Below, piece by piece: positions 4,386 through 49,087 of a stretch of DNA of 64,000 nucleotides. Made by a program: the position numbers and the translations under genes. The DNA lies in assembly GCA_006384855.1 (NCBI GenBank), contig VCJN01003491.1, positions 149,336-213,335 on the forward strand, given 5' to 3'. The DNA is from Tetraselmis striata (lineage: Eukaryota; Chlorophyta; Chlorodendrophyceae; Chlorodendrales; Chlorodendraceae). The notes below the pieces were generated by a model. The model was not told the origin of the DNA and ran no database searches. It saw only the letters and a program-made list of their open reading frames with translations. Numbering within the stretch: the first letter of the stretch is position 1; each line of letters starts with the position of its first letter.

Positions 4386-4403
4386 TGGTTTCGGAGCTTA
4401 GAC
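4386..4403 (+). promoter_or_regulatory. Probable tRNA primer-binding site
   Basis: Two bases after the LTR end comes TGGTTTCGGAGC. TGG complements the CCA end of a tRNA, and the next bases differ at only two of twelve positions from the plant initiator-methionine primer site TGGTATCAGAGC. The primer tRNA is therefore inferred, not proven. Confidence 0.6.
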
Positions 4404-4422
4404 AGCGGTAAGCGACGTAAAG

Positions 4423-5427: not shown

Positions 5428-5582
5428 TGGCGCGGCGATTGACCGAGGAGGAGTTTGAGAGATTTAAGAAGGAAGGTCGCTGCTTTATCTGCAGGGCGAA
5501 AGGTCATGTTGCGTCCGCGTGCCCGAGCAAGAAGAAGAAGATTTCTGAATATCGACCCAGAAAGACCCGGCCGGGAAACTAA
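5427..5582 (+). CDS. Zinc-knuckle (nucleocapsid) mini-ORF of the gypsy element
   Basis: A 51-residue frame lies between Gag and Pol. It holds one CX2CX4HX4C knuckle (CFICRAKGHVASAC) and then a basic tail rich in Lys and Arg, as in nucleocapsids that bind genomic RNA. It is in the -1 frame relative to Gag. Its ATG overlaps the Gag TGA by one base. Its own stop, TAA at 5580-5582, follows the heptamer GGGAAAC directly, so a -1 slip would carry ribosomes into Pol. A sequencing error could also split one frame into three, but the two precise recoding-type junctions argue against that. Confidence 0.75.
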   Translation: MARRLTEEEFERFKKEGRCFICRAKGHVASACPSKKKKISEYRPRKTRPGN

Positions 5583-5611
5583 GACGTGAGTCGGCCGCGC
5601 GCGGCGCGCGA
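5573..5611 (+). promoter_or_regulatory. Candidate -1 ribosomal frameshift site (GGGAAAC plus GC-rich structure)
   Basis: G GGA AAC occupies 5573-5579 in the zinc-knuckle frame, a textbook X XXY YYZ slippery site directly before the TAA. After a -1 slip the next codon starts at 5579, which is the Pol frame (open from 5549). Twelve bases further on, a very GC-rich self-complementary stretch (palindrome at 5594-5605) could act as the stimulatory structure. Confidence 0.65.
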
Positions 5612-5722
5612 CAGGGTGAAGGACTGTCCCCTAAAACGGCTCGCGAGACTACAGAAGTACAGCCCTCGTATCCTCGAACGACACTGAGGCCTGATTTCCT
5701 CCACAAGGATTTCAGCGACTGG

Positions 5723-8700
5723 ATGGTACATCGCGAATTATTTCACGAGTACACGAAGAAATACGGACCCTGCGACCTGGACGGAGCTTGCGATAATGAC
5801 GGCCTGAATTCTCAAGTTTCTGGTAGTTTTTGCTGTCCGACGCGCCCATTTCAGGAACAGGATCTCGGAGAATATCGGCGTATTTGGCTAAATGCCCCGT
5901 ATGACCGAATTGAAGAATTTTTGGGCCACTACCTTCGACAGAAGTTATTGCATCCGCATCTACGAGCAATTATTGTGGTCCCAAAATGGTCGCGTAAGCC
6001 GTGGTTTCGACTACTTAGAAATTTTCGTCTGGTGGATGAGTTGCCAGCGGAGACTTCTGTGTTTACGTGTCCAACGAACGATGGCATAGAAGGTGCGAGA
6101 CAAGATGTTGGCCCCACTCGATGGGCGACACAGATCTACGCTGACGATGGCGCCGGCGTACGGTTTCTACCGCAGCACCTGAGAACCCCACCGAAGCCTG
6201 AGTGGACGCACTCGAAGGTTCTAGTAACCGATGGAAGACGAGTGCTTCTGACTGTAGAAGACAGCGGACTGATTTGGTTTCCAGAAGGCAAGCGCGGCGA
6301 CACGGACGCGACGCCGGAGACAACAGCAGTACGACGATTACTCGAGCAAACTGGGTACCGGGTACAGGAGAGCAATCTACGGTACCTCGGCACTCAGCGG
6401 ACGGGAGACAACCGGTGTCCTGTATACCTGTATCGCGCTCGTCGTAATACTGTACCTACGAAGACCCCTTTGAACCGTGCACTATGGACAACCTGGAAGA
6501 AATTATTGGAGGCACGAAGTACGGGTTATCTGGAGACGGAGACAGTACGCTACCCACTACGGTACGAAAGCTTCGGCGAACAAATTGATGAATATGTCAA
6601 CCGTAACGTCCGACTACCTGGCGAAGACTCCACATCGCGTTTGTGCAACGTATCTTCACCGAGTGGTACCCGACTGCTGACTATTACTGGCGAATTGCGA
6701 GGACGACACTGTAAAATACTGGTGGACTCTGGTGCAACCGAAAATTTTGCGAGTACCGAATGGGTGCAATTGCATCAGTGCCCTACAGTATCCGGAGGAA
6801 AACACCGTATAAAACTGGCGAACGGCAGTATGAGTACCAGTACCAAACGGCTGAGGAGCGAAGTACTTACCGTAGGAGCTTTCGACTATAAATTGGACGC
6901 TATAGTTACAGACCTGGAGAAATTCGACATTATTCTCGGACAACCTTGGCTGGAAACAGTTAATCCTGACATCGACTGGACTGCTAAAATTATTAAACAC
7001 CGGAAGACTGGACAACACATTGCTACAGCGGAACAGTATACAGTACCTACGACGGTTTACCATCTGGACGCGGCTAAGATGGCGAAGGAGCTGAGGAAGA
7101 GTCGCGGCGAGGAACTGTTTGCTGTTGCGGTACGCGAGGTGTTCGATGCGGTAGCTGAGCTGCGCACGGACCAGTCGACCGAGTGGACCGAGGAGCTCAA
7201 GGAGTCCCTTATGGAGTTTGCAGACATCATCGCGGAGCCTACTGACCTGCCACCGGAGCGCGAGTTCGACTTTGAGATCAACCTGGAGAGTGATGAACCC
7301 CCCAAGGAACGAACGTACCGTATGTCACCAGCGGAGTTGCAGGAGGTACGGTCACAACTGGAGGAATTGTTGGCAAAAGGGTGGATTCGTCCGTCCAAGT
7401 CAAACTACGGCGCCCCAATTTTATTTGTGCGTAAGAAAGACGGCACTCTGCGTATGTGTGTGGACTACCGTAAATTGAATGACCTTACGAAGAAAGACCG
7501 GACCCCGCTTCCTCGCATCGACGAATTATTGGACTCATTGCATGGTGCGACTATTTTCAGTACTCTGGACCTGTACAAAGGCTACCATCAAGTACGAATT
7601 AAACCGGAAGACATCCACAAAACAGCGTTCCGGACACACTATGGACTCTACGAGTACTGTGTGTTACCTTTCGGCTTGACAAACGCCCCAGCTGGATTCC
7701 AGACTATGATGAACCGTGTTTTGAGCCCATATCTCGGCAAATTCTGCGTGGTATACCTGGACGACGTGCTGATCTACAGCAAGACAGCTGAAGAGCATCT
7801 CGAGCACATCAGATTGGTGCTACGGGAGTTGCAACGACACCACTTGCATATCAAGCTGTCGAAGTGTTCGTTCGGCGGTACTAGCGTGGAGTTTTTGGGC
7901 CATATCGTCGAAGCAGGACAGATCAAGATGGACCCCCGGAAGGTGGAAGCAGTTCAACAGTGGCCCGTGCCGAAGACAGTAAAGGACGTACGAGGTTTTC
8001 TCGGCCTTGCTGGCTATTACCGCAAGTTCATCCATAACTTCGCGGCTATTGCGGCGCCACTACATGACCTGACGAAGAATCAACCGGAGTTTGTGTGGAC
8101 GCCTCGTGCTGATGCGGCGTTTCGTGCATTAAAGGACGCAATGGTACGAGCACCTGTACTGAGTATACCGGACACATCTGCGGACGCCCGTTACACATTG
8201 TATACAGATGCTTCTGGATTTGCAGTGGGAGCTGTGCTGCTGCAAGATCAAGGCTCAGGACTTCGACCTGTCGCGTACCATGCACGCAAGATGAACAAAC
8301 ACGAAGTTCACTACCCGGTACATGAGCAAGAGTTGTTAGCGGTTCGTGATGCACTCATCAAGTTCCGATGCTACCTTGATGGAGCGGCGGGCTTTACGGT
8401 CATCACCGACCATGACACGCTACGGCACTTCTTTCGCCAACGCGATTTGTCGACGCGGCAAGTACGATGGCTGCAAGTGTTTGCGCCTTACCAACGACAT
8501 ATGGACATCGTCTACAAGCGAGGAGCTGCCAATCATGCGGACGCCCTCTCTCGGCGACCCGACTTGAAGGATGCGCTACAGAAGCTAGATCTGCTGAACA
8601 ACTGGTCAGAAGACGAGGCTGACTGCGAAATAAATTCAGTTTTATTTGCTATGGAGTCGCGACTACAGGCGGACAACAAGTTTTATGACGAAATCAAGAC

Positions 8701-10168
8701 CGCATATGACTCCGACGAGTACCTGAAATCGCGGAAGGCTTTACCATCCTGGCTAGTACGTCACAGTAATGGTCTACTGTACGCCTACGGCTCACGACTT
8801 TACGTACCAAATGTGGCGGACCTGCGACAACGAGCACTGTATGAACTACATGACGCGCCTACTGCTGGACACCCAGGAGGACGACGACTACTGGCGCGTA
8901 CTGTGGAACTGTACTGGTGGCCCCGTATGAAACAGACTGTCACTAACTACGTGCGACGCTGCCCTACCTGTCAACGTACTAAGGCGGCCCGGCATAAGCC
9001 ATACGGCTTACTTCAGCCCCATGACGTACCGTCACGACCATTTGAGGTAATATCCCTGGATTTAATCACAGATCTTCCGGAGTGCCAGGGGTATGACTCA
9101 GTAGTGATTTTCGTATGTCTACTGTCAAAGCGAGTAATTGTTGAGCCAACTACGAAGACAGTTACTGCTGAAGGCCTGGCGGAGATTATGCATCGCTCAG
9201 TTTTTCGTCATTTCGGCCTACCGGCTAAACTCATCTCTGACCGAGACCCCAGATTTATGTCGGAATTCTGGCAAGATATGTTCAAGACCATGGGTACTAA
9301 GTTGAACATCTCTACAGCTTTTCATCCAGCAACCGATGGCCAGACGGAACGGACTAACCAAACTTGGGAGCAAGTGCTACGCTGCTACGTGCACCCCCTG
9401 CACGATGATTGGGTCAACCACCTCACCAACGTGGAGTTTGCGATCAACGCTGCTCAGTCGACTTCGACTACTATGTCCCCTTTCAAGGCGACTTTGGGAT
9501 TCGAGCCGACTACACCTGCTACTACTCAACTCGCAACCGAGCCGACTCGAGCTCTTCCGGAACACGTCAAGTATGTACAGGAGCTTCATCGCTTCGCGCA
9601 TGATTGCGTACTGGAGGCTCAAACTCGTATGCAGACTGCAGCTAATCGTAAACGACTACCCGTACGATTCAAGACCGGCGACAGAGTTAAGCTGAAGGCG
9701 TCTCATCTGAAGTTTATTCAGCAACCCTGTGCTAAGCTACGCGATCGCTACGTGGGCCCCTTCGTCATTACAGAGCAGATCTCGCCAGTTGCTTTCCGAT
9801 TGCAACTACCTGCGGGCGTACGAGTCCACGACGTGGTGCACGCGAGTATGCTGGAGAAGTGGTATGACGACCCTGACCAACCGGCGAAGTCTGAACGAGT
9901 ACCGATTGTCCATGACGCAGACCGATTCCATGTTCAGGACATACTCGATGTTGCCTTCAACAACAATGGCACTGGACTACTGTTTCGAGTGCGATGGGCG
10001 TTCCCGTACAACGTACCAAGCGAAGACACCTGGGAGCCCCTACGCGGAGTCAAGCACCTGGACATTTTCCGGTCGTTCTTACTGTCTAAACCATACCGAC
10101 AGTTTACTAAGAGCCCAGACTTCATTCGGTTCCGGAATCGCTACCCAAGCCGAGTACCTTCCGCCTGA
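5723..10168 (+). CDS. Pol polyprotein: MTase-like, Nudix-like, protease, RT, RNase H, integrase
   Basis: 1481 residues from the ATG at 5723. The frame is open back to 5549, and the first domain seems to begin upstream of this Met, so entry by frameshift is likely. Domain order: residues 1-120 resemble a phage-Dam-type adenine methyltransferase domain (GPCDLDGACD, WLNAPY at 55-60, IIVVPKW). About 162-245 is Nudix-like, with a degenerate box near 189-212. An aspartic protease has DSGATENF at 335-342. The reverse transcriptase has YLDD at 678-681. RNase H follows (TLYTDAS). The integrase has a zinc-binding HHCC region (CPTCQRTK) and a DDE core (SLDLITD, SDRD, TERTN). The C-terminal 110 residues look chromodomain-like (FRVRWAF, EDTWEP). 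The methyltransferase- and Nudix-like modules are not standard parts of gypsy Pol. Confidence 0.93.
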   Translation: MVHRELFHEYTKKYGPCDLDGACDNDGLNSQVSGSFCCPTRPFQEQDLGEYRRIWLNAPYDRIEEFLGHYLRQKLLHPHLRAIIVVPKWSRKPWFRLLRNFRLVDELPAETSVFTCPTNDGIEGARQDVGPTRWATQIYADDGAGVRFLPQHLRTPPKPEWTHSKVLVTDGRRVLLTVEDSGLIWFPEGKRGDTDATPETTAVRRLLEQTGYRVQESNLRYLGTQRTGDNRCPVYLYRARRNTVPTKTPLNRALWTTWKKLLEARSTGYLETETVRYPLRYESFGEQIDEYVNRNVRLPGEDSTSRLCNVSSPSGTRLLTITGELRGRHCKILVDSGATENFASTEWVQLHQCPTVSGGKHRIKLANGSMSTSTKRLRSEVLTVGAFDYKLDAIVTDLEKFDIILGQPWLETVNPDIDWTAKIIKHRKTGQHIATAEQYTVPTTVYHLDAAKMAKELRKSRGEELFAVAVREVFDAVAELRTDQSTEWTEELKESLMEFADIIAEPTDLPPEREFDFEINLESDEPPKERTYRMSPAELQEVRSQLEELLAKGWIRPSKSNYGAPILFVRKKDGTLRMCVDYRKLNDLTKKDRTPLPRIDELLDSLHGATIFSTLDLYKGYHQVRIKPEDIHKTAFRTHYGLYEYCVLPFGLTNAPAGFQTMMNRVLSPYLGKFCVVYLDDVLIYSKTAEEHLEHIRLVLRELQRHHLHIKLSKCSFGGTSVEFLGHIVEAGQIKMDPRKVEAVQQWPVPKTVKDVRGFLGLAGYYRKFIHNFAAIAAPLHDLTKNQPEFVWTPRADAAFRALKDAMVRAPVLSIPDTSADARYTLYTDASGFAVGAVLLQDQGSGLRPVAYHARKMNKHEVHYPVHEQELLAVRDALIKFRCYLDGAAGFTVITDHDTLRHFFRQRDLSTRQVRWLQVFAPYQRHMDIVYKRGAANHADALSRRPDLKDALQKLDLLNNWSEDEADCEINSVLFAMESRLQADNKFYDEIKTAYDSDEYLKSRKALPSWLVRHSNGLLYAYGSRLYVPNVADLRQRALYELHDAPTAGHPGGRRLLARTVELYWWPRMKQTVTNYVRRCPTCQRTKAARHKPYGLLQPHDVPSRPFEVISLDLITDLPECQGYDSVVIFVCLLSKRVIVEPTTKTVTAEGLAEIMHRSVFRHFGLPAKLISDRDPRFMSEFWQDMFKTMGTKLNISTAFHPATDGQTERTNQTWEQVLRCYVHPLHDDWVNHLTNVEFAINAAQSTSTTMSPFKATLGFEPTTPATTQLATEPTRALPEHVKYVQELHRFAHDCVLEAQTRMQTAANRKRLPVRFKTGDRVKLKASHLKFIQQPCAKLRDRYVGPFVITEQISPVAFRLQLPAGVRVHDVVHASMLEKWYDDPDQPAKSERVPIVHDADRFHVQDILDVAFNNNGTGLLFRVRWAFPYNVPSEDTWEPLRGVKHLDIFRSFLLSKPYRQFTKSPDFIRFRNRYPSRVPSA

Positions 10169-33304: not shown

Positions 33305-35520
33305 TTTTTTTTTTTCGCCCCCGGGACAGGACTGGCACCAGTGAAACCCTTGCAGCGTCTCTACGACGGCCGTTTAGGCAGCAATCCAGTTACGGAAAGC
33401 CCTGGGTAGGCGACGCTCCGTTATAGTCATCAAGGAAATTGCCGAAGCATTTCGCAAGACTAATTGGAGGCCAGTGACGGAATTTCCAACACTGTTGGAT
33501 CACCGTCTAAAACACTGCCATCAAAATACCCGGCACTGACCACGAAAGGTCCGCCCTACCCGTTTGGGCGTCGGCCCATTCGAGTAATGCGAGTTGGGGC
33601 AAGCCCCAACCCGCGGAGCAAAGCATTTCGGGAGTGCGATACATGTGCAACAAAAAAGGCAATGTGAGGGAGGGCCCGACGCCATAGCTGGAAAAATTTC
33701 CCATTCCCAGTAAAATCCAGGGCGCCGTGAAGGGAGGGGGGGACCCCGCCCAAAATAAAGGCAGTTAAGTCCTCAGGTGTTGACGCACTAACCTGACTAC
33801 TAATAAAATCCCTGAACTCCGGAACTAACAACCCAAAATTATGACGGTGATACCCCCACCGCGGGCACTCCACCAACATATGTTCGATAGTCTCAGATTC
33901 ACCTCCGCCACATGCAGGGCAGTGTTCAAGGAACCGCTCAGGCATGGCATGAATCCGGGCCAATCGGCGGGCAGTGGGAAATACTCGGGTGCGTAATTGT
34001 ATCATAATGTGCGACCCGGCCACAACCCCCGCGGGGACACCCACACCGTACTGTGGCAACGGGTTTGACGCATAGGACGCCTGGACATATATACCCCAGG
34101 TGTTATTGCGTGCTAACGATACCGACGATTCGTAACGCGCCCACACCGATGCCTTTACTAGTTTAGCGGCATCGCGCGCGGCTAGTGACCTCCACTCAAG
34201 TGGAAGGTGCGCCCCCTCAGCTAGCCCTACGTTCGCCCTAGCTAGTCGATCTAACCACCGCACAGTCCCCGACGTCCACGTGTTAGGGCGCGCCCGACTT
34301 GGCTGATCTACTAAATGGGTTATACATGTATTCAAGTCGGATGCTTTAAGGAACGCCCGAGCCCGTGCCGCAGCGGCCGTAGCCTCTATGGGCGCAATAT
34401 CCAATTCCCGCATCATCGGTGCAGTGGCTACCCCAGGGGAGTTTTTACCTACCCCAATGAGGCAACGCAAGCACTGATTGAGTACAGTTTGTAATTTATT
34501 TGCGCCGCTAGTTCTATCCATGCCCCATACTTCACACCCATAAGTTAAAACCGGCAGTACACAGGTTTTAAAAACCGACACACGCACATTCATAGGGATT
34601 ATGTCCCGTCCACCGACTAATACCGAATCGAGCGCCTCAATAGCGCGTTTACCCTTCTTAACCCGGTCGTCTACTATGTGTTGCATACCTAAATCCGACT
34701 TAATGACCGTACCCAAGTACCTATATTCATTTACAACCGGTACCCGTTCCCCCCCAAGCTGCCATCGGGCAGCTTGTTCGCGTAACGCGGTCTCGTCGGA
34801 ATATCGGCCTAATGCCATCACCCCACACTTAAGTACCCCAAACCCCATAAAATGATCCTCCGCCCACTGCGAGAAGTGGGCGAACATGGCATGCAGGTTA
34901 TCGAACGAGCCTGTGATACCAACAGCGTCGTCCGCGTATAACTGACCTGGCACCCTTAGTGGTTGCCTTGCTGCTAATGTGTCAGTGCACCCTGGTACAT
35001 CACATCCTAGATGTTCTACCCCATCGAATATATCGTTAATAAATATGTTAAATAGGATGGGGGAAGCGGGGCATCCCTGTCGGAGGCCACGCTCTATGGG
35101 TATGGGGTCTGATAGTGTTCCCGGGGCCACCCCTGTCTTGACCCGTACCATACTATCCATGTATAAAGTTTTAATGAAGGTAAGCATATGACCCGCAACT
35201 CCTATGGCTTGTAGTTTTAGGAATAAAAGCTCATGAGGTACGGTGTCATATGCCTTCCTAAAGTCAATAAAACCCGCGTACGTGGGTAGACCTGCCGCTT
35301 GGCGACGAGCCGCGATATCGAACAAGCTGGCGACTTGCATGGGGCCCTCCTCATTCCGCATAAAACCCGCTTGCCAACGGCGGATTATCCCTTTAGCTTG
35401 GCAGACGTCTTGCAAGCGTTGGGAAATGATGGTCACAAGGAGTTTCATAGCGGCACCCATAATCGAAATACCCCTATAATTGTCCATAACGGTCGCGTCG
35501 CCTTTCTTGTATGTGGACAT
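33305..35520 (-). mobile_element. 5'-truncated LINE (non-LTR retrotransposon)
   Basis: A minus-strand element whose 3' end is a run of T at about 33305-33315 on the plus strand (a poly(A) tail). It has about 240 bases of 3' untranslated sequence, one long ORF and an abrupt 5' end inside the reverse transcriptase near 35520. The missing apurinic endonuclease and ORF1 indicate 5' truncation on insertion. Confidence 0.8.
33556..35520 (-). CDS. LINE reverse transcriptase, N-terminally truncated
   Basis: 654 residues with no internal stops. It opens in the first reverse-transcriptase motifs (YKKGD, NYRGISIM). Then come FIDFRKAYDTVPHELL, RGLRQGCPASPILFNIFIND and the catalytic QLYADDAVG. YRYLGTVI follows in the thumb region, and a C-terminal zinc-knuckle-like CPACGGGESETIEHMLVECP closes the ORF. 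An in-frame TAA lies just upstream of the first ATG. The uninterrupted frame suggests fairly recent insertion despite the truncation. It resembles the zf-RVT-containing LINEs common in algae and plants. Confidence 0.85.
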   Translation of the reverse strand: MSTYKKGDATVMDNYRGISIMGAAMKLLVTIISQRLQDVCQAKGIIRRWQAGFMRNEEGPMQVASLFDIAARRQAAGLPTYAGFIDFRKAYDTVPHELLFLKLQAIGVAGHMLTFIKTLYMDSMVRVKTGVAPGTLSDPIPIERGLRQGCPASPILFNIFINDIFDGVEHLGCDVPGCTDTLAARQPLRVPGQLYADDAVGITGSFDNLHAMFAHFSQWAEDHFMGFGVLKCGVMALGRYSDETALREQAARWQLGGERVPVVNEYRYLGTVIKSDLGMQHIVDDRVKKGKRAIEALDSVLVGGRDIIPMNVRVSVFKTCVLPVLTYGCEVWGMDRTSGANKLQTVLNQCLRCLIGVGKNSPGVATAPMMRELDIAPIEATAAAARARAFLKASDLNTCITHLVDQPSRARPNTWTSGTVRWLDRLARANVGLAEGAHLPLEWRSLAARDAAKLVKASVWARYESSVSLARNNTWGIYVQASYASNPLPQYGVGVPAGVVAGSHIMIQLRTRVFPTARRLARIHAMPERFLEHCPACGGGESETIEHMLVECPRWGYHRHNFGLLVPEFRDFISSQVSASTPEDLTAFILGGVPPSLHGALDFTGNGKFFQLWRRALPHIAFFVAHVSHSRNALLRGLGLAPTRITRMGRRPNG

Positions 35521-37544
35521 AATAAATATTTAACACGCTTGGATACGTTTCGGTACGTTCCTTTCGGGTAGTAGTGCGCTTAAAATGATCATGTGGGTGA
35601 CGATTGGTAACGAACAGCCGCGCCGGGACAGAAGCGATAATCGCCGTTTCGGCTTTTAACTTGCTTCAAGCTCGTCGCCGACGAACTCGTCGCGCTACCA
35701 GTGCACGCGCGGTACCGAACGGCTAGTCGGTGTACCCGTGTGAATTACAAAAAGGGCAGTTCCTCAGAAATAGATAGGGCTGTACCCGTACCGCGTGGGA
35801 CACGGATTTGAATAGTTTGCTTCTGGGCTTTTTGGCGCTGTTCGAATAAAAAACTCGTAGTTCATTACGTTTGACGCCTAATGTCGGAACATCATGATGC
35901 GGAACGTATGCAAACCAGCAGTATCGTGTACTGGCGAGCACGAGTACCCGTACGCGCGATCAACCAATCCGCGCACAACAGCAGAGCGCGGCTGCTCTGC
36001 GTTCAGCTTAATCACTGAAATTATTCATGGACGCCATATAGCGATCACTCCTCTACAGGACTTGGCTGGCGCTCGATAAGAAAAGCCGGACCTGGCATGC
36101 AACTACTCCACCGACGAGAACTTCTGGTGTTGTGCCATCACCTGCTCGGCTGCACGGACGGGCCTGACGGATGAGTGCCGACGGCGGCAGCCTATCGGCA
36201 TACTTATTCTCCTAAGTGCTGGGTCAGCGAAAGCTCGAACCTCTCAAATCTTCTGGGCTTCGCAAGTACTGCCATGGGCTGGAGGCAGCACCGGCTGCGG
36301 CAGGCACAGACTTCGGCGAAAACAACGTCGGCAGAGCCGATTCTCCGCGGTATGTACTCCTTGGGTTTCGCAAAGAACTACTCACAGAAGACGATTGAAG
36401 AACGGCGGCCCGACAGCTTAGTGACGGTCCGACATGCTCCTGAACCGTCCCAAGCACGCTCCTCCGAGGTGGTGTCAGGCGCGCTGGAGGGCAAGGCCGA
36501 TCCGCAGTTTCGGGTTGTTATCAAGACCGTGAGGTTCCTCCGCACAGGTATAGGTTTGCTGAGACGACGCACACAATAATTCGCCACTTACCTTGCTTGA
36601 TATGGGTGGCTCTTCACAGTGCAGTCGTCTATTAACCCTGCGCAACTCGCTGCACTACATTTTACTAGTTAGTGACAATATATATCATATCAATTTGTTC
36701 GCTTTGCCACCGCTGATTTAATGGTTATTGCGATTCTACATCCCCTCGCAAGTGTTAGCGACTGATATAGAGTACAACACGAGTCGCTTTGACCTCGGAG
36801 CCACTAGCGGTGATCTGCAGTCGTTGCAACCCGACTTGCCGTCATGAGTGCGTGCGGGCAACTAAACCCGGAAATTCAATCGAATACGACAACCACCCCG
36901 CGTCGCATCTATTGTCGCAGCCAGGTGATGAAATCGCATGTTTGCAGTCGGCTAGCTAGTACGGCGTGGCGCAGCGTGAACAGCATTTCGAATTTCGAAT
37001 GTTCTCGTCGTCGATGGGCTGCCGTATCCGATCCGCTGCGTTTGCGAGGGGCAGGAAATACGTCAATGGTATGCGATTATTGTTTCTTTTTGATACGCAA
37101 CGAAAAAAACGCAGACCATCTCCGTATTTGCTGCTCATAGTATAAGGTACATACCTTCTCCACTGCTCGGTGGAGAGGGTGTCTCTTCTCCAAGAGGTCC
37201 CGGGTTCGATTCTGGGTTGATGCAGTGTAGGCAATATCGGCCTGGCGTGTCCTGGGTTTACACGGTTGATGCATAATTAGGCCTTCGGGGTTCGAATGAA
37301 GCAGTATAGTTTAAGGGCTATGCCAGACCTACAAGTGCAGCTGGCGCCCGAGTTCAAGTGCTGGGGTGGCTTCGGCTGGTGACCGGGGGCGAACTTTACT
37401 TTACTTATCACCGTTGTACAGTAGCGTCTACAACAAGAACCTTTGATGATATCCGCAGCCCCGCACTATTGACGACGATTTCACTAAACTGGACTGATTA
37501 CTCGTGAGACTGATACCCCTGACTCGGGCCTGTGCGGCGGTGAT
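35521..37544. other. Intergenic stretch upstream of the formin/kinase gene
   Basis: Open frames at 36175-36579 and 36844-37140 (plus) have no recognised motif. Upstream exons of the next gene could lie here because its first visible exon starts inside a RhoGAP-like fold. A tRNA-like block at 37150-37310 is listed separately. Confidence 0.4.
37150..37310 (+). repeat. tRNA-like block, possible SINE head
   Basis: GCTCGGTGGAGAGG and, 30 bases later, GGGTTCGATTC resemble internal RNA polymerase III promoter boxes A and B. A second GGGTTCGAATG follows about 85 bases downstream. The T-arm pairs with one mismatch, but I find no acceptor stem, so this is not a functional tRNA gene. Confidence 0.35.
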
Positions 37545-37868
37545 ATGGCAGTGAACTTCCGCGCGACGCCTGGCCTATTCCTGCAGCAAGCTCCGATACA
37601 CAAGGTAGACCGGATGATGGAGCTTCTCCGGAAAGATAACGACAGTCTACCAAGTAAGTCCGATGCATTCAGCGCACCATGTCAACAGAATAACCTCCTT
37701 ATACCTTGGCACTGCAGCATCGCCTCCTTCTCATGTGTCGGCGATTTAGCATGGTGTGATTCAACAAGTATGATATGCTTTGTACTGTCAAAGCACACTA
37801 GGGTTGCTTTGCTCATCTGGCGTGATTCACATATGTCTCACACATTCCATCGCATCCCCCCCCCCCTC

Positions 37869-37902
<34 letters not shown>

Positions 37903-40900
37903 CACAGTGGTTCAATTTGAACTTTCTATAGAACCTGTGTAGACGTTGTCAAAACTGACTACTGAAAAAAATGCAGTTTAGGTAGATGTGGTGGGCGGCG
38001 TCAATATCCCACAACTATCCCTTAACAATATACCTTAACAATATCCCTCAACACGAAGATCAGCTTGGGACATGCCTACTAGGCAGCAGTGTTGTGGGAC
38101 TTGTTACAATCAAGTATGGCTTGTGTCCATGGATGCGGATTGAGTGAGTCATGCGCTCTGACCGCTGCAGAGAGAGGAGCCTGTCCATACACAGTTGCGG
38201 GCGCTCTCGTGGCGGCGCTACACGATCTGAAGAAACCTCTTATGTATGCCGACGCAAAGCGGCTGGGCTCCCACCCGGAGGCGGTCCTTGACTTCGTCTC
38301 GGATCTCGTGCTCACCCCCGAGCCGAGGAAAACGGGCTTTGTGCTGGCCAACCTGTCTATTGTCCTCTACGCCTTGTGCCAACCGCGTGAAGCAGGGGGG
38401 GCCGGCATGCAGCCATCCATGTTGGCGCTGGCGCTTACCCCTGCTGTGTTTCAGCTGTACTCTGACAGTGGTACCCCAGGTAAGCAGTACGGCCGTGACT
38501 CAAGCAATCCCCTTGCGCTCTGCAGCCGCTTTGTTCTACAGTACCATCAGCTGAATGGGTTCCTCACAGTAGGCATGTGCATGTGCTTGCCTGCCTGAAA
38601 CCCCGCCAGCATCCAAGAGCTACCACGCGGAGGCGCAGAAGATGATGGAGGCATTCATCATGAAATGTGGCCAGTTCTTCTACAGCAGAGAGTATCCTGA
38701 GAAGGCGCGAAGCACTTGGGTCGTGTTCGATCAGTCTACTACTGAGTCGCATCAGCCCGTTGCTGCTGCCACCGATGCTGGCGCTGCTTCGGAGCCCATC
38801 AAGGATGTCCGGGTGGAGACCAACTGGAAGATTGCGTCAACGCAGCGGCGGGCCGCCGCTCAGAACCAGGCAGTGGCACTTACCGCCGCTCCCAAGGGAA
38901 AGCGATTGCAGCTGCCATCGTATGTCCATGCTGGATTTCCCGTGAACCTTTGCCCACACTTCTGCTTCATTTTGCACAACTAGAGACCCTTCGACGGCAC
39001 GTACATGAGGTGAATGCGTGCTTCTGTTTGTTCCATTATCTCGCGCCAGACGGAGCTCGGCGTTGGCAAGTCAGGCGGCCAAAGTGGTGCCAGAAGCGCA
39101 GAACCGCTGCATCCCTACTATGTACCGTGTTGAGCTTCCGCCAGCGAATAATTCACAGGTGATGGCCGCATCCGCTCCGTCCATCTGCAAACCGCTGATA
39201 ATCGGAGGCGCTAATATGGGCGCCAATCTCCATCATGTCGTCAAGACTGACCATGTGGCTGCCGCGGCGCGCACCTCCTGAAGTCGCTCGCCGCATCCCC
39301 GTGCTCTCAGCAGGACCCGGCTTCCGATGAGCAGAGCTTTCCGGATGAAGGCGCTTGGTGGAGCACTGAAGGGGTGACAGGCGCTGCTTCCGACGAGCCT
39401 TGTGCTGAGACACACAGAAGCGCCAAGGTGATACCCTGCCTTGACCTGTAGCCCGGTCACAGCCTGCCTTGCTGAATTAAACTCAAGGTGCGTTTGTTAG
39501 GCCTGTCTGCACCCGACCCTCTGGTTCTGAAAACATGCTGATGCCCCTTCAGGTATCTCGACCAACCTGCAAAGATGGTGCGAAGGTTCGCCTGATTGAC
39601 AGTCATCGGGCAGATGCAATCAGCGCCGAGCTGTACGGCATGCGCCACCTTCGGATGAGTGAACTGCGCGCCGCGCTCATCGCCATGGACTTCACCAAGC
39701 TGGAGGTATGGAATTCCATCCTCAGCCGAACTGTGGTCCATGCTCTGTGGTTGAGTATAGGGCGGCTGAGGTTCTCATGCCCTGGCCGCAGACAGAAGGT
39801 CAGTGTGCGTGCTGATTCCCGTCCCGCGTGTGTGGATGTATGTGTTTGGTTGTGTTTGCAGAAAGAAGACCTCTTGAGCGTGTGGCGCACACTGCCCAAC
39901 AGCAGCGAGCGCGGACATGTCAACAACTACCTCAAGGGAGAGCATCCCAAGTACATGGTAGGCCTGGCACGTGCACACTTATTGTACCTGATAGGGAGTA
40001 CACCTGTCTGCTGTGTGCCTGAGTTGGAGCGTGGGTATGGCCTTGTGTATGCTCCTAGCTAGCCCGATGCGGATGGGACGGAATGATTTCCCAGGGAAAC
40101 ACCAACTTAATGGGAGGGTGAAAAAGGTATATCCATGAGGTACATAAACCATATGTCCATGAGGTCATACGGTTTGATATGTCGTCCATATGGGATACTG
40201 TTGGGGTTTTTAGATACCTGATAGTGGACATCTGTATGTGTTGTATGCTATTAATTCTTCGCGAATTATGATGCGCTGAACGAGATTCAAAGTCACGTGG
40301 TTTTACAAATTTGTGCAAAGCATCTGCATACATGCCATTATACTGAGTAAACTATTTGGAGTAGCATGGCAATAGATGTCTTGTCGGCATGTTTTAACTT
40401 TGACTCGCAATGCAGGGGATGAGCGACCCCTCGGTGCTTGGCGCCGTGGAGGTATACTTCATGCATCTCATGGACATTCCGCGGCTGAAGTCCCGCGTGG
40501 GGGCATGCCTCATCGGCGCGTCGGTGACGCCCCACCTGAAGGCCAAGCTGACGGAGCGCATGGACATCCTGCGCTCCGCGTGTGAGGAGCTCACCTACTG
40601 TCAAGATTTCCATGATCTGCTCGACGCGTTGCTGTCCTTGTCGGGCAGCTGCCAGGAGGAGGATGCTGAAGGCGGCGGGGAGGTGCTCAAGGGCGATAAT
40701 CAGCCCGCTGAAAAAGAGGCTGACCTGTTCGCCATTCTCCAGGCGATGGAGGCCAAGGTGATGCCAGGACTGTTGCCAAGCTTCGCGATGTCTCCGTGCA
40801 CCCTGATTGCTCTCAACCTATAGACGACGGACAAATGCTCCGCATATGCGTGGTGTGCCTTGCTTTAGTTACGCTGCAGCAGCAATTCATTAGGCTGTTC

Positions 40901-43205
40901 AGTCGCCCTCTGCTGACGTGTGCACTGTGATCGCGCAGGATGCAAACGATCCAGACGCAAGCATGCTCCGTGATGTCATCCGTGAGATGAAAGCGAGCAG
41001 CAACGGCGGGACCTCGGTCCCACTGCTGCACCAGATGCCGCACCTTGAGCAAGCCTCCCAGTTGCAGGTGGGCGGCAGCCATGACTGTGAGGTGCAGCCG
41101 GGACAGTGCGGCATGCACTCCCGGCGCGGCACTGACAACCTGACGCCACCTTGCCCTGCCTGGTGTCCGGCTCGTAGGTCAAGGGGTTTCGCGAAATTCT
41201 GGATAAGATATCCAGCGGGCTTAAGACCGTAAAGGAGGAGATTGTGGCGGTGAGTTTACCCACAGCATGGCGGCGTGCCACGTAGGTCTCACTCATGAAG
41301 ACATGATGATGATCATCATGAGTATTATCATATTAACATTGTACTGTTATCATATACGTATTTTTGATGATAATTGATAACAAGTTCGTTTGAAGCATTG
41401 TATTATTGAGCACTTGAGTCATTATCGCCATCATCATTAATATACTATTGATGATAATAAATAACATGATTACTACAAGATTGTATTATCATTATATTTG
41501 AGACGTTATCATACATCGGGGGAAATGACACCAGCGTCCCCAAATTGCAGGCGACTTTTGATGAGGCACAAAAGATGATATCCCCTCAAGTGATGATCAA
41601 CTTCCTCGAGAGAGAGTCTGCGGAGCTCAAGGTGCGACGCAGGCCATGAAGGGTGCCGCTTACGTTATTAGCAGAGTTGAGTGGGCTCGCCTTCTTCCAT
41701 GCGTAGATTGCATTACATGGAGCACGCGTAGCTGCTCGCCTTCCCTCTGCCCTCAGCTCATATATCGCTCCAAAGTCGGAGCATTGACTGACTGATTGGG
41801 ATTATCCCATCACACGCATCGGCCGCATTATGAAGTTGCGCGACAACTGCATAGCAATATTGAATGGCCACCCACCCAAGGAAGAAGATACTATCTATTT
41901 GCCCAGGAAGGTTCCCTGAAGTTCCGAAACCACCAAGTGCCACAATCTGGATCTGCATTATTATCAATGACCCTCGATGTCTTCTTCAAAGCGGCACCAC
42001 AGCCCTCACGCGGAAGGGGCTGAGAGATGACTGGGCGCCTGTCAAGCAGGGGCTGCAAGCGGCGAGCGAGGGCGTGGCCGCAGAGCTGCAGCGGCTGGCG
42101 GTGCGCTACGGCGAGCAGTGCGCCGGATGTGACCCCACTTTGCTGCTCTCTTCCGTGTTTCGTCTCGCCAACACCTTTGACAAGGCCCTGGCAGAGGAGG
42201 ACGCCGCCAACAAGCCTGAGGAACATCAGCCGACGGTCGATGAGGTGGCCACCCTCCCAAGGAGGAAGCCCGCGAGCCAGCGACTGACGAAGAGCTCGCC
42301 GGCAATGCTGGGGGTGTCGGCCGGCGGACACAGCTGCGGTGAAGCAAGCGGCGTCCTGAGCCCTCTGTCCTCGGGCGATGAGAGCTACTTCAACCCGCTG
42401 TTTCAGACGGAGGACGCTCAGGAGGACAAGGCCAGCCATCACAGCAGCCCGGCCCTGCTCCACCGTCCCCGACCCCTGAGCCGCGTGGCGACACACCAGG
42501 TGGGTCCTGCCAATATATTGAGAAGATAGGTGCGGGCGGCCGAGTATACGTCGTATATCGCGGCAGTGTCGTGTTGACTGTTGGTGACGGCGATCGACAG
42601 TATTTAAATGGGAAATGTCGGATGCTCCGAATTTCATCAGTCGAATCTGATTGCCCTCGACTGATGGAAGCGGTGCGACACGGGTGGCGCAGGATAATCA
42701 GACGAGCACTGATGATGAGAACGCAGCCGGCGAGGAGGAAGCCATCGAGGCACTTGACTGTGGCCCTCAGCTGGCAGACGAGCCACCGCATCAGGTGGCG
42801 ACAAGCGGCTTGCGTCATATCAGCGCCGAGGAGCTGGACGCTATTCTTGACGACGGGGCCAGCAGGCAGCATCCGCTTGGGAGCGGGGGCTTCGGCACCG
42901 TCTTCCGCGGCATGATGGACCAGGCGCCCGTGGCGGTGAAGCTGCTGGACCCCGGTAGCCTTCAGGGGCGCCGGGAGTACCACGCCGAGGTGGAGCTGCT
43001 GGCGGAACTGCGCCACCGCAACATCGTGACCATCTACGCCGCGTGCGACGCCCGGGCGGGTGTGGTTATGGAACTCATGGAAGGTCAGTGGCGCCCACTA
43101 TCCCTTTCAATCACCTCGTCATGGAGGCACTGCCCTCGGAAGCGTTCACAATCCCTCTGGATTTCGTTTTGAGTCAAACACGCACGAACGCACGCACACG
43201 CACAC

Positions 43206-43239
<34 letters not shown>

Positions 43240-45479
43240 GCACACACACACACACACACATACACCGTACACGTGCAGTATGTACATACAACTTCAGGCA
43301 TATAGAACTGATCTAATATTTTCGACAACAGCCGCATCGCGATGTTGACACGGGCGGTTGATATTCCCGTCGCAACATCGTTGAACAATGTTGGCGAGGG
43401 CCACTAGTCGGCCACAAGTTGGTGGTGCCAGCGCGGCAATCGTCAAGCTGGTCGATTCGTCAGCGGCCTTTGACCCGTGCGAGTCGGCGATGTCTTGTCT
43501 AGATTGTCGACGATATAATACTGGCGTTGAGGTATTCATCGAGTCTGCGACTCGATCCGAGTAGCTCAACGTGCTGAACGAGTTGTATGGTCGGAACCGG
43601 GAGTAAAGCTTCACACCAATAAGTATCAATGTTGTGGCTATAATGTATGCACATTTCAAGAGTGGGTTGCCTGGACATGGATGAGCCGTAGGTCTGATTC
43701 TGGCGGTCCCCGGGGCGAATCCATCAATTTGCTGCCTTGGTCGTGGGCGCTGACACTGACCCTTGGCTCGACCGCGCTGCTCCCTCCAGGAGGATCTCTG
43801 GAGGACCGCCTGATGAAGGGCGATATGCCATGGCAAGCGCGGTTGCGCGCTCTGTACGAAGCCTGCGTGGGCCTGCACGTGCTGCACAACCAGGCGCCGC
43901 CTATCCTGCACCGCGACTTTAAGCCATCCAACATTCTGCTGGCCAAGGACGGCGCCGCCAAGCTGGCAGACGTCGGGCTCGCGAAGAAGCTGGCGCCCGG
44001 CGGCTCCCGCCTTATCACGCACTCGACGCTGGTGGGGAGCCTGGGCTTTGTGGATGAACACTACCGCCGGACAGGGGAGTACCGCCCCGCCAGCGACGTC
44101 TACGCCGTCGGGGTGTCCATCCTGATGGCGCTCCTGGGCCGCACGTGAGCGCCCCTCCCAGCCTCGTCCCACTTGATCGGAGCTTTGACAGTTAGCTGAG
44201 TTTGGCTGCGCACCGAATTGTGAAGGGTCAGAATAATTAGTCATTGCATTTTAGAAAATATGGATGGGTGCAGATGCACCCAACATATCAACTATCCGAT
44301 TGCTTATATAAACCTGCAGCTCAAATGGTGATGATCCATGTGAGATTACTCTATCGATGCATCGGCCCTGGTGTTTCGTGCTAAGCCGACGCGTCCCCAC
44401 CACACCCTGAGCGCAGGGACCCCTCCGGCATTGTTGAGGAAGTCCGGGAGGCCATGCTGGACGGCATCGAGATGGAGCTGCTGGATGGTCGGCCCGCCGC
44501 TGGGGAGTGGGACCTGAACCAGGCCAAGGTCGCCATGCGTCTGGCGCTGGCGTGCGTCCAGTTTACGCAGGGCCGCCGGTGAGTTGCCACCGCAGTCAAA
44601 TGAGAAATGAGTGTATCCCCTCCCCGCCGCCCCTGACACCCGTATTAACAACGATCCCACAATGCTCCTATGAAGGCCAACTCTGGAGGCGGTAGTGAAG
44701 GAGTTGGAGGTGTTCCAGTACGTTGCGCCCCAAGTCAAACCCGCCAAGCGCCCTGCGCAAGTTGTAGACGAGCTGTTGGTGTGCCCTCTAAGCGGCTCCG
44801 TGATGACCGACCCCTGCATGGCGGAGGACGGCTACACCTACGAGCGCGAGCGCATCCAGACGCACCTCGCCGTCCACGCCACCTCGCCCGTCACCAACGA
44901 TGCCATGGGCCCCACCCTCCTCCCCAACCAGATGCTCCGGAGGCTGATCGCAGACCGGTAGGCAGCACACCCTCGCTCGACCCCACAAAACATCATCATT
45001 AGTTGACCGCAGCTCCCGCAGCCTGATCGGCAGTCAATTGCATCTCCACTTCGATTGTCAGTAGTCGAATTGCAACTACAACTTGTGGTGGTCAAAGGTC
45101 AGTCAACGGGCGGTAGTCAACATTGTTATCTGGCAGTCGGTCGGTAAGCGGCGGGCAGGCAGCCATTATTTGGTTTACTCCGCCACCAAATGGTTCATAG
45201 CCACAAGATGGTGAGCGGCATCCACTGAAGATCGCAACTTTCCCTACCCCCACCCCCCCCCTTCGCCTTCCACACCCGTTCGGCGTGGTCAGAGCGCTTG
45301 TGGCGAAGACATCCAGCTCTCCAAGCAAGCCAAGCAGAGCGCCCGGCATGGCCCAACGTGCACCAAGGGCCGCCGGCAAAGGGGACACCGAGAGTGGTGC
45401 CAGCAGCATCAGCAGCTTTCTAGAGCAGCAGGAGCAGCCCCGCTCTGAGAACTTGGCGGCCGCAGAGTGCAACATCTGA
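37545..45479 (+). CDS. RhoGAP-like / formin FH2 / protein kinase / U-box fusion protein
   Basis: Sixteen exons: 37545-37653, 38171-38479, 38610-38919, 39050-39158, 39553-39705, 39862-39957, 40416-40757, 40939-41067, 41178-41249, 41551-41631, ~41990-42499, 42693-43083, 43790-44144, 44417-44578, 44676-44957 and 45317-45479. Reading phases agree at every junction except the ~41990 one, which I could not resolve. Exons 1-2 look like RhoGAP (TPGLFLQQAP, CPYTVAGALVAALHDLKKPL), with the arginine finger replaced. Exons 5-11 form FH2 (RLIDSHRADAISAEL, SVWRTLPN, VEVYFMHLMDIPRLKSRV, FHDLLDALL, ILDKISSGLKTVKEEI), which nucleates actin. Exons 12-15 form a kinase (GSGGFG, VAVK, HRDFKPSN, ADVGLAK, SDVYAVG) and a U-box (LVCPLSGSVMTDPCMAEDGY, LLPNQMLRRLI), as in plant PUB kinases. 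The terminal exon adds a low-complexity tail. The fusion is inferred from splice phases and the missing kinase start. The first exon may not be the true start. Confidence 0.75.
37868..37906. repeat. (CA)n microsatellite in intron 1
   Basis: A nearly pure CA run, preceded by a C run, lies between the first two exons of the formin/kinase gene. Confidence 0.8.
41290..41520. repeat. AT-rich block with repeated ATCAT/ATGAT motifs
   Basis: This intronic block between two FH2 exons is far more AT-rich than its surroundings. It is dense in TATCAT, ATGATAAT and CATCAT words on both strands, giving much local self-complementarity. No coding content. Confidence 0.6.
43187..43265. repeat. (CA)n/(CG)n microsatellite in the kinase intron
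   Basis: An alternating purine-pyrimidine tract of CACACG, CGCGCG and CACACA words, between kinase exons 42693-43083 and 43790-44144. Such sequence can adopt Z-DNA. Confidence 0.8.
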
Positions 45480-46769
45480 GTCCACCAAACGGGCATTGTT
45501 CTACACCCGCTGCCCCTGCACTGGCAGCGGCGCCCAACAAAACGCCCTTGTTTTTCAATCAACTGGCGACACTCCTTGCTTGCAGCAGGCTTCCCTCCGC
45601 TATCATGCAAGACCCGCATTCGCGAGGCCGTGCTAACCACGGGCCCACGCGTTCCTTAAGAATCCCCATGTAAGTAGCTAGATTCCATGATATTGGCCAT
45701 GCGATCACGCGGGATGTGTGCTGTTAGCATCTTCATGCACTTGAATACCATGGTCAGCTATTGCATAGAAAGGTAGGTTCTAAGGTAGCTATGCGTGTTT
45801 TTGCGGTTTGTATGCTCAGTGAATATATTATGCGTGGTAGCTACACTGATGCAGTAAGTGTATATTGTACTGTGCAGTAGGGCGTCAATGCATAAATCAG
45901 CGCAGGCTTCTTTTAAAAGTGAGGAGAGTGCAGGCTTGCCATAATACAGATATGCGATGGGTGCGCTGCTGGGCGGCGATGGAGACCGCCGCAAATTTAA
46001 AATTTCGTACAACTTCGTTCCCGCTTAGTTTTTGGTGCCTGTCAAATTATATGGCCTGTCAAAGACGCCCCCTACTCTGGCATGCCAGCCAGCCAACTCA
46101 CTGTTGGTGGGGGGGGGGGGGGGGGGGGGGCATGATCAGGGCATGGAATGTGCCACTCCATGCACGCTCCAATGCGAGGACCTCGTGCACGGGTCTCCAC
46201 GTCGCGTCCACCCTGTTGTTATTTCGGATGCTTCCCTTTGATCATGAGGGTCATGTGCTACAACATGCGCGCGGACATGTGCGCAAGCTGTGGAAATGTG
46301 TTTTTTTTTATGGGGGCGAGCTCGGACTTCGCCCACGGTGCACAGGTGTTGTAAGCATGACCCTGTGGAATCGAAAGGACTTTATGTTTACTACTTCAAC
46401 TTAGTGAGGCGTAGCCAGCGGCGTTAATCTTGCAGTCTTAGAAAATTGTGGGATTTATAATTGTGGTGAATTGTCTGCATTATTATCACATTGTCATGGA
46501 AATTCTCATTCATTGTAGCATGCATGGATTGGTCTCAAACGCCATGCGTATGTCCACTCACCCCCGGGAGCGCGCGTGAATATATGCTGCGGACGCTAGC
46601 TACATCGCCAACATGTTGCTCCCCTGTGCGTTGACCGTGTTTCGGTGGTTTTAACCTTGTGCCAAACAATGCCAGTGCCAAGAAACATTGTTACAAGTGC
46701 GGTGATCGGACGAAGCAGCTTGCTTCTTGGCGTAGGAGGCTTGCATGAAATGAAACGCGGGGCTTCACG
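45480..46769. other. Intergenic stretch with a G run
   Basis: No supported exon after the formin/kinase gene stop. A G run of about 20 bases lies at 46110-46130. The first retroelement coding sequence appears near 46770. Confidence 0.5.
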
Positions 46770-49087
46770 GCCTCTTGGCCACATGGCTTGGGCACCAAGG
46801 AGTGGATACGCGTAGGTTTCTATGTGCAGAGACTTGTGATCATCGGCCTTTGCAGTTGCTGATGAGCACCGACGCTCAGATTCGCGGCAAGTTGGCGAGG
46901 TGGGCGATGCGGCTCAGCGAGCACGACTTCGTGGTGCGCGATCGAAAGGGCGTCAACCACGTCAACGGAGAATGTCTGAGCCGGTGGCCCGTGGAGGGCG
47001 ACCCATCGGAGCTGGATGGACTCAGTGAATTTTTCATCGGAGGGCACTGTGCGACATGCGGCAGTCTATTGATGTGCGGCGGCTGAGTGCAGCCTGCGCC
47101 TGAAGCTGTCGGTGTGGGACATGCGATAGCGCGTGTTGGCCGCCGCCAAAGCGGGCGCGGGTGACGGCGACTTGGTGGCGGTTACCGGCGAGCTGTCGGC
47201 GGGACCGCAGAGAGGAGACCCATGGGTGGACGCGGAGGCAATGGTGGAGCTGCATACGGGTATCATCAACATGCCGCCACCGTACGCCCGCTACGCATGG
47301 CGGAGGGTCGACATTTTGTGGTATATGCACATGGACGGCACACGCCGAGAGGTACCGCCGCCCAGCGAGCGAGATCCGTGATTACGGATGTCCATGTCAA
47401 GATGGGCCACTTGGGGTAAGGGCAGGGGGGTGGGGGGATCGATTGCGCAGTGTCATCGCCGCTTCATATTTCTGGGCGGGGATGGTGGAGGATGTTGCTA
47501 ATAGTGTGAAACAGGCGTGCCCGTGTTGCGATAGGCTGCAACACCGACCCGGCGGCACAACCGGCGATCGAAGACAGCCTCATCGTAGTTGAACATGCAG
47601 CCGCTATCGCATTACGGCATGCTCTACAGTTGGCACCTAGATCCGGCGGAGCCTTTTGGGGCCACCCGCAATCGGATCGTCTGGGTGTTATTGCTTTGGA
47701 GAGCAGGGTGGAAGCGCAGAGCCAAGCAGTGATGGGTCAATAATTTGGTTCCGCCGCACCAATATAATGAGGCAGCCAATAAACGGCAAGGATTCGACGA
47801 TGAGATAGTGTTGGCGCGCTTCGCAGCGCATGGCGGGGTGTGTACCGACGGCAGTACTAATATCAGCGGCGAGTTTCACGACTTGCTCGTGGAGCAAAAC
47901 ATCGACCATCCGAGGCCGCTACCGTACCACCCGCAGCCCAACGGGCTAGCGGGGGGGGGGGGGGGGGGGGGGGGTCTGAAGACATTCAAGGAGGCGCTGA
48001 TGCGCTACTTGATTCAGCCTGGCAAGCGTAACATGAGGGGCACTTTATTTCCTTCCATCGAGCGGGGCTACATGGTGCAGCAAGCACTTCAACACCGCCA
48101 TGTACAATCCTCACGAGTAGTTGGTGTACGGCAGTGCGCCGGTGTTTCCGGCGCATACGATAGCGCTCTTCGAGCACCGCACCGTGGACTTCGACTGGGA
48201 CCCAGAGGGCATGGGAGCTAAGCGCGGTGCGTGCGGAGCGTTTGGCAATCACTGTGGTGCTGACGGCGATGCACAACATGGAGGCGGCACAACACCATGA
48301 GGTACTGCGCTATCGCCGGAGGCGCGCATAGCTGGTGACACCCGGAGTGCAGATTTACAGACTCGGCGACGCCGTTTATCTGGAGCAGTGGCAGCAAGAT
48401 GCACTCGATCCCGGAGTGCGACCAGCCGTTTACAAGGTCTACGAGATCAACGGCAACGGCGTGGTGGTAATCTAAGGCGCGGACGGCGACTCCGTGCGGG
48501 TGCGAGTCAAGGAGGTGGCCCGGTGCTGCGCCGTGCCATACCTGGTGTTATCGGGAGATTTTGAAGACCCCGACATGGCATGCGCGGATTGCGATGGTCG
48601 CGTCAGCACCCGACGAGACCTCATCATCATCTGCGAAGACTGCGAGCCAAGATGGCGGAAGCGGTTTCATAAACCGCTTTTGGCGCATGTGCCGCGGGGG
48701 GCGTGGCGGTGTGTAGAGCGCGGTGCTGCTGGCGCAACATTGCCGGCACATACCCCAGCAATGATTATGGCAGCCACATCCATCAGTGACAGCGACGACA
48801 ACGACGAGGCACACGCGGCGTGTGTCCCTGTCAGCTGCGGGGGGGGGGGGGGGGGGGGGGGGGGGGAGGTGGGGGGGACACACATACATGCATGGGGCCG
48901 CGAGTGCATGTGTGGGGACACACACAATGCCCCCCCCCCCCCCCTCCTTCGCCGTGAGCTGCTGCCTCACAGCTGCTCCCACAATGATGTGGCTGGCCCC
49001 TCGCGTTCTTTGTCCCCGCTCGATAAGCGTGTCGCTGAGCTAGAAGACTCTATCGTTGACTGCTCTCGCAGTATCAAGACTGCGTAG
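46770..49087 (+). pseudogene. Decayed Ty3/gypsy pol end with a PHD-like C-terminus
   Basis: The end of RNase H reads near 46840-47000 (DHRPLQLLMSTDAQIRGKLA, DRKGVNHVNGECLSRWP). The integrase zinc region follows in other frames (VKMGHLG, SYFWAGMVEDVANSV, CPCCDRLQ). The integrase core is at 47760-48110 (VCTDGSTNISGEFHDLL, YHPQPNGLA), where a G run replaces the expected next codons. After DAVYLEQWQQ and VRVRVKEVARCC comes a cysteine cluster (CADC, IICEDC, HVPRGAWRC) that resembles a PHD finger lacking its His and some Cys. Frameshifts and stops show it is dead. No LTRs were found. Confidence 0.65.

Follow-up and report, generated by a model that had tools for sequence, protein, structure and literature searches.

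The gene at positions 37545 to 45479 of the analysed window, a stretch of 64,000 nucleotides that forms part of contig C2811 in the Tetraselmis striata genome (224 Mb, 2903 contigs), is best read as one fused gene and probably encodes a RhoGAP-like domain, an FH2 domain, a protein kinase and a U-box within a single polypeptide. The first-pass annotation had proposed such a fusion. Support for it comes from the anatomy of the sequence, from a second haplotype, from an automatic gene model in a public database and from related genes of this genome that are likewise composed of an N-terminal module, a kinase and a U-box, whereas no transcript-derived protein across the FH2–kinase junction was found among the protein-database matches listed. 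By predicted domain content and order, the front end matches a class III-type formin.

Exons linked through GT donors form a single open frame from the ATG at 37545 on the plus strand, the strand of all features of the gene described here. Exon 1 (37545..37653) carries this ATG and the start of the RhoGAP-like domain with the stretch GLFLQQAP, exon 2 (38171..38479) the core of the domain and exon 3 (38610..38919) its end and a linker, which may continue through the tentative exons 4 (39050..39158) and 5 (39311..39427). The FH2 domain extends over exons 6 (39553..39705), 7 (39862..39957), 8 (40416..40757), 9 (40939..41067), 10 (41178..41249), 11 (41551..41631) and 12 (42050..42499), the last of which also contains a Ser/Pro-rich tail with 29% identity to the tail of a paralogous formin on contig C2400. 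Behind a junction intron of 193 nt (42500..42692), exon 13 (42693..43083) encodes an acidic linker and the kinase N-lobe without a Met ahead of the glycine loop, exon 14 (43790..44144) the kinase motifs HRDFKPSN and DVG, exon 15 (44417..44578) the kinase C-lobe, and exon 16 (44676..44961) the end of the kinase and the U-box. A domain search of the predicted protein matched FH2, Pkinase and U-box in this order, with RhoGAP below the threshold. The exon junctions had been described as consistent in phase save one at about 41990, and this holds: the exception was an FH2 exon start at 42005 that lacks a preceding AG. The acceptor before 42050 (AAG/GGG CTG CAA, the slash marking the splice site) restores both the AG and phase 0 and resolves the odd junction.

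Contig C614 aligns with window positions 35507-43265 at 98.2% identity and with 43175-46038 at 95.0%, and is on these grounds regarded as the other haplotype. In exons 1-16 it retains every GT, every AG and the reading frame, with 12 amino-acid differences between the haplotypes. A public automatic model of T. striata, EukProt jgi/Tetstr1/464258/TSEL_009063.t1 (P0001, standing for five member sequences), unites FH2, kinase and U-box in a single chain, with the same FH2–kinase join as the window model. It also uses the acceptor before 42050 (ESAELK/GLQAASE) and includes exons 10 and 11; it differs from the window model by longer forms of exons 3 and 9 and by the absence of exons 1, 4, 5 and 17 and part of exon 2. 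Eleven of the 12 haplotype differences fall within P0001, which has the C614 residue at all 11 in a by-eye comparison; P0001 thus appears to be the same gene on the other haplotype.

The assignment of the first domain was indirect. Direct Pfam matches of the window domain to RhoGAP (0.021-0.046) stayed under the cut-off, and a spurious KIP1 match in the same protein scored 0.05, close to the RhoGAP value of 0.046, which was discarded as too weak for an assignment. A phmmer search of the RhoGAP-like part against the PDB returned one unrelated weak match only, and a Pfam RhoGAP search of the genome listed C2151 and C1159 only, with neither the window nor C2400 among them. When the genome was searched with the protein, one contig besides the two haplotypes, C2400, matched both the RhoGAP-like part (7.8e-6 and 0.03) and the FH2 part (2.6e-25 and 0.0012), on one strand and in the order of the window gene. 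The RhoGAP-like region of C2400, its exons joined by eye, matched Pfam RhoGAP at 2.5e-11 and Rho GTPase-activating protein 7 in the PDB at 5.7e-4, and it is 37% identical to the window domain over the whole domain. Solely because of this paralogue, the window domain is accepted as RhoGAP-like. Exon 1 is likewise supported, since C2400 also has GLFLQQAP and since the Pfam RhoGAP match vanishes without this exon. At the loop of the arginine finger both proteins read GLFL, with a leucine after GLF, where we take the RhoGAP consensus to be GIFR and the arginine finger to reside; the arginine finger is thus predicted to be replaced in both. Class III formins are described as having a RhoGAP-like domain without an arginine finger, followed by FH2, and occur in prasinophytes, a moss and a lycophyte (Grunt et al. 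2008, PMC2386819). Table 2 of this 2008 survey gives class III for prasinophytes and none for Chlorophyta (PMC2386819). The C2400 gene (L054, L055) is a class III-type formin in a chlorophyte, with RhoGAP-like domain, FH1 and FH2 and with intact motifs. No kinase match was found near it in the 10 kb examined, which include about 2.4 kb after the last FH2 frame, up to the contig end.

The FH2 domain of the window gene is recognised by PF02181, with 1.3e-18 in one search and with 1e-22 and 81 bits (cut-off 34.8) in another, the best stretch starting at position 72 of the 372 of the profile, with the first ~70 positions outside. It was aligned with that of C2400, to which it is 39-42% identical, and with two other T. 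striata FH2 stretches. In place of the GNxLN motif, kept in all three of the other stretches (GNHLN in C2400), exon 8 of the window gene encodes SGSCQEED and an insert. The isoleucine of NLSIFLG in mDia1, which we take to be I845 (the numbering is inferred from chain length and recall), is an alanine in exon 6 of the window gene (DAISAEL) and an isoleucine in C2400 (NICIEL). The window gene model has neither a proline run of the FH1 type ahead of FH2 nor a recognisable FH2 lasso, and a missed exon is possible in both cases; in C2400, by contrast, extended proline runs precede KLKQLHWDKV, corresponding to an FH1 and the start of a lasso. The substitutions mDia1 I845A and Bni1 I1431A are reported to disrupt actin binding and assembly (PMC10690107). 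With GNxLN lost, an alanine at the key isoleucine position and neither FH1 nor lasso seen, the window FH2 is improbable as a conventional nucleator of actin. The suggestion in the first-pass annotation that the gene couples an actin nucleator to a kinase and an E3 ligase is therefore unsupported: this FH2 lacks key actin-binding features that C2400 has kept, and after the motif comparison we abandoned the nucleator reading.

In the kinase–U-box end, Pfam matched Pkinase at 6.4e-34 and then U-box at 9.3e-9, and K722, E738, H810, D812, N817, D830 and G832 (P0001 numbering) occupy invariant columns of a 27-row alignment; the catalytic residues of the kinase are intact, and the protein is predicted to be a kinase and a U-box E3. 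Relatives are abundant, with 105 exon-level matches and 58 U-box matches in the genome. The upstream frames of ten relatives (L036-L045) were scanned for front ends. WD40 repeats preceded the kinase in six of them (L036-L040 and L045), and leucine-rich repeats (LRR) in L041 and L042, which were mapped with the public models P0010 and P0009; for L043 and L044 the scanned frames gave no assignable front end. WD40-like frames also lie upstream of L047, and among the public models WD40 (P0002-P0008) or LRR (P0009-P0010) stands ahead of kinase and U-box. The window kinase–U-box shares 56-58% identity with WD40 and LRR members, and in a 27-row tree the FH2, WD40 and LRR members form one clade with 100/100 support, in which the FH2 member branches first, but on a long branch; the ankyrin protein P0024 falls outside. 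An array of WD40–kinase–U-box genes in tandem lies on contig C2725 at 82-153 kb (L036-L038), mostly with 10-11 kb spacing and with several exons of equal scores, and C1568 carries L039 and L040; the WD40–kinase–U-box family looks recently expanded. On C2063, a kinase–U-box relative (L046) follows frames that by eye resemble leucine-rich repeats of the ribonuclease-inhibitor type, perhaps a further front-end type.

For two relatives there is evidence from RNA. P0024 is a complete MMETSP ORF for a more distant ankyrin–kinase–U-box protein, which aligns with contig C1116 over 20 collinear blocks and is identical to it at 864 of 871 residues; a fused mRNA of N-terminal module, kinase and U-box hence exists in T. 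striata or in a species very close to it. From JGI contigs comes P0121, a protein of 382 aa that agrees exactly with L043 at 376 of 382 residues; as the match falls in five blocks, it derives from spliced RNA. It is of the LRR type and starts at a Met just upstream of the kinase exon, with the segment MRPLQP that is also found inside the LRR models P0009 and P0010; it shows a splice to an upstream exon, not the LRR part itself. Both proteins are precedents, not proof, for the FH2 member.

At the FH2–kinase junction itself, the splice anatomy is as first described. The FH2 coding sequence stops in phase 0 at 42499, just before a GTGGGT donor (CAG/gtgggt in the exon chain), and the kinase exon begins at 42693 in phase 0 after CAG (gcag/GATAAT), both sites being kept in C614. 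The kinase exon has no ATG: a TGA at 42648-42650 precedes it, the frame opens at 42651, and its first in-frame Met (GMMDQ) is already part of the kinase fold. When the splice sites on this strand of the window are scored with a matrix derived from the gene's remaining 15 introns, only seven of 3754 GT sites, the junction donor at 42500 included, reach the score of this donor (top 0.2%), whereas the score of the junction acceptor is reached by about 302 of 3759 AG sites. Agreement in phase alone is weak evidence, since one third of joins agree by chance; the reading as one gene leans more on the strength of the donor, on the kinase exon's lack of an ATG, on the second haplotype and on the precedent of the family.

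It is nevertheless conceivable, if unlikely, that two neighbouring genes are present, a degenerate formin ending at a stop near 42527 and a kinase–U-box gene that begins with a short 5′ exon of its own, in which case the in-frame join would be due to chance and P0001 a merge of neighbours. Gene finders do merge neighbouring genes, and P0001 is an automatic model. The formin frame, if 42500-42692 is left unspliced, indeed meets a stop by 42529, and weak alternative starts exist, for example an ATG at 42664 or 42622 with a donor at 42673 and an acceptor ending at 42794. In a scan of ATGs between 42380 and 42870 with splice sites at least as strong as the poorest one used by the gene, 28 combinations of ATG, donor and acceptor could give the kinase its own start, but all are weaker than the FH2 junction, and among those that leave the conserved LRHIS segment in place the highest score is 7.4, compared with 14.8 for the junction. 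Two separate genes would also leave one of the strongest donors of the window standing at the end of a formin. The relatives speak in both directions. The FH2 junction differs in place and phase from those of the WD40 and LRR members (phase 1 and nearer to the kinase, against phase 0), which counts against the fusion and refutes a common junction phase for the three types. Among nine relatives matching the search pattern (the tenth, L044, did not fit), the kinase frame ahead of the conserved segment has no Met in six and at least one in three, namely L037, L038 and L045. The proposition that every relative needs an upstream exon is thereby refuted; taken together with P0121, whose recorded first Met lies near its kinase exon, this leaves it possible that some relatives start just upstream of the exon.

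The database matches bear on the same question. One search gave P0001 alone; in another, FH2 was shown for P0001 alone among the best 120 of 829 matches, some domain lists being cut short, and a search restricted to about 275-875 residues gave 21 proteins with no FH2 in the domains shown. Among the protein-database matches listed, no other species had the same architecture. The searched database did hold an MMETSP transcript of the same alga (P0024), yet returned none for the junction, a result that would fit two genes. Formin authors caution that exotic formin architectures may be artefacts of gene prediction when cDNA is lacking (PMC2386819), a caution that applies to the present gene.

A bicistronic transcript, with the formin ORF and then the kinase ORF translated separately, would agree with the proximity of the two ORFs and with the prevalence of polycistronic nuclear transcripts reported for green algae (PMC11291117); we consider it very improbable, as no start codon precedes the fold in the kinase ORF and the junction has splice sites of agreeing phase. 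Lowest in probability, although the degenerate FH2 and the lack of a transcript among the matches listed would agree with it, is a decaying gene or an assembly artefact, that is, a fusion in the DNA from which no protein is made. Both haplotype contigs are free of stops and frameshifts in exons 1-16, and the haplotypes differ by 9 synonymous and 5 nonsynonymous changes in the front part (residues 1-759; dN/dS 0.17, one-sided P 0.0014) and by 9 and 7, respectively, in the kinase–U-box part (dN/dS 0.26, one-sided P 0.0074). These substitution counts show that both halves are under purifying selection, and they count in favour of the one-gene reading.

The 3′ end is less certain than the junction. 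Immediately behind the U-box, a TAG at 44959-44961 closes the frame if the donor at 44958 is unused; P0001 ends there. An in-frame stop lies 3-8 residues past the matched U-box in 13 of 14 paralogue U-box rows, and 43 residues past it in the remaining one (L047). The segment 45293..45479 may be an exon 17, coding for a C-terminal tail, or 3′ UTR. Its 187 aligned bases are identical in the two haplotypes, but C614 has a 2-bp frameshift in it, so that it may be UTR or affected by a sequencing error; as a last exon it is doubtful. TGTAA is a poly(A) signal in green algae, and the candidate at 45669..45673 is the first on the strand after 37000. The stretch from 37000 to 45669 thus offers no such signal for a formin gene ending before the kinase, but this is weak evidence, because several paralogues carry TGTAA inside their kinase–U-box part; its absence was accordingly downgraded as proof of one gene. 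In seven of the 14 paralogue rows TGTAA occurs 221-565 nt past the stop, and in the other seven none was found in the sequence examined after the stop.

The window also contains retroelement frames. Those of a Ty3/gypsy-type element occupy window positions 4402-10168 (+), with a gag-like frame (4402-5427) and a pol frame (5549-10168) for protease, reverse transcriptase, RNase H and integrase; ahead of the protease, the pol frame matched NUDIX (1.4e-5) and, below the cut-off, Dam methylase (4.5e-5). A reverse transcriptase frame of non-LTR appearance lies at 33556-35529 (-) (RVT_1, 1.4e-25). There, the haplotype alignment jumps from window position 33306 to 35507 while C614 is continuous, and C614 seems to lack about 2.2 kb. 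A short way downstream of the gene, a frame at 46754-47086 (+) resembles by eye the end of an RNase H of a retroelement, and about 1.5 kb of additional sequence is present in C614 at window position 46038. Neither tRNAs nor tandem repeats (score of at least 200) were detected in the window.

Taken as one gene, the locus probably arose when a duplicated class III-type formin was joined to a C-terminal kinase–U-box cassette, the one that in T. striata is also found behind WD40 and LRR front ends. The RhoGAP-like domain without an arginine finger and the worn FH2 would form a binding and possibly dimerising platform, not an actin nucleator, located at sites of Rho GTPases or of the cortical cytoskeleton, where the kinase and the U-box would phosphorylate and ubiquitinate partners held at the platform. 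Retention of the 193-nt junction intron could yield a short form with the formin part only. We infer from the domain composition that the protein may act as a targeted or scaffolded kinase–E3. More tentatively, and with somewhat less than even confidence, a formin that has lost actin nucleation might have become the sensing front of this kinase–E3, reading the state of Rho GTPases or the cortex and leading to phosphorylation and ubiquitination of neighbouring proteins, as one of several exchangeable fronts (WD40, LRR, ankyrin and pseudo-formin) on an algal kinase–U-box output cassette. If true, a scaffold of the Rho/formin type would be combined with kinase and ubiquitin-ligase output within one chain, and a cytoskeletal domain would have been recruited among the exchangeable front ends of kinase–U-box proteins. 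The intact C2400 paralogue makes the loss of actin nucleation testable side by side in the same genome.

Similar to class III formins, the window gene has an N-terminal RhoGAP-like domain without an arginine finger, followed by FH2; unlike them, it adds a C-terminal kinase–U-box, and its FH2 motifs are degenerate. The C-terminal order of kinase and then U-box is shared with the plant PUB kinases and with T. striata P0002-P0010 and P0024, but these relatives have a front of the WD40, LRR, ankyrin or Usp type where the window gene has RhoGAP-FH2. The CrPUBs of Chlamydomonas are U-box proteins with many added domains, including WD40, ankyrin and kinase, and the 13 kinds of added domain named for them comprise neither formin nor RhoGAP (PMC4378952). 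The window gene resembles the CrPUBs in the addition of domains to a U-box and differs from them in the formin and RhoGAP parts. In the portions of the literature available to us, no description of a formin or FH2 domain combined with kinase and U-box was found. A kinase and a U-box with a swapped front end is a known kind of arrangement in plants and algae, and what looks like the new part, as far as domain predictions go, is a pseudo-formin front end on a known modular kinase–E3 cassette.
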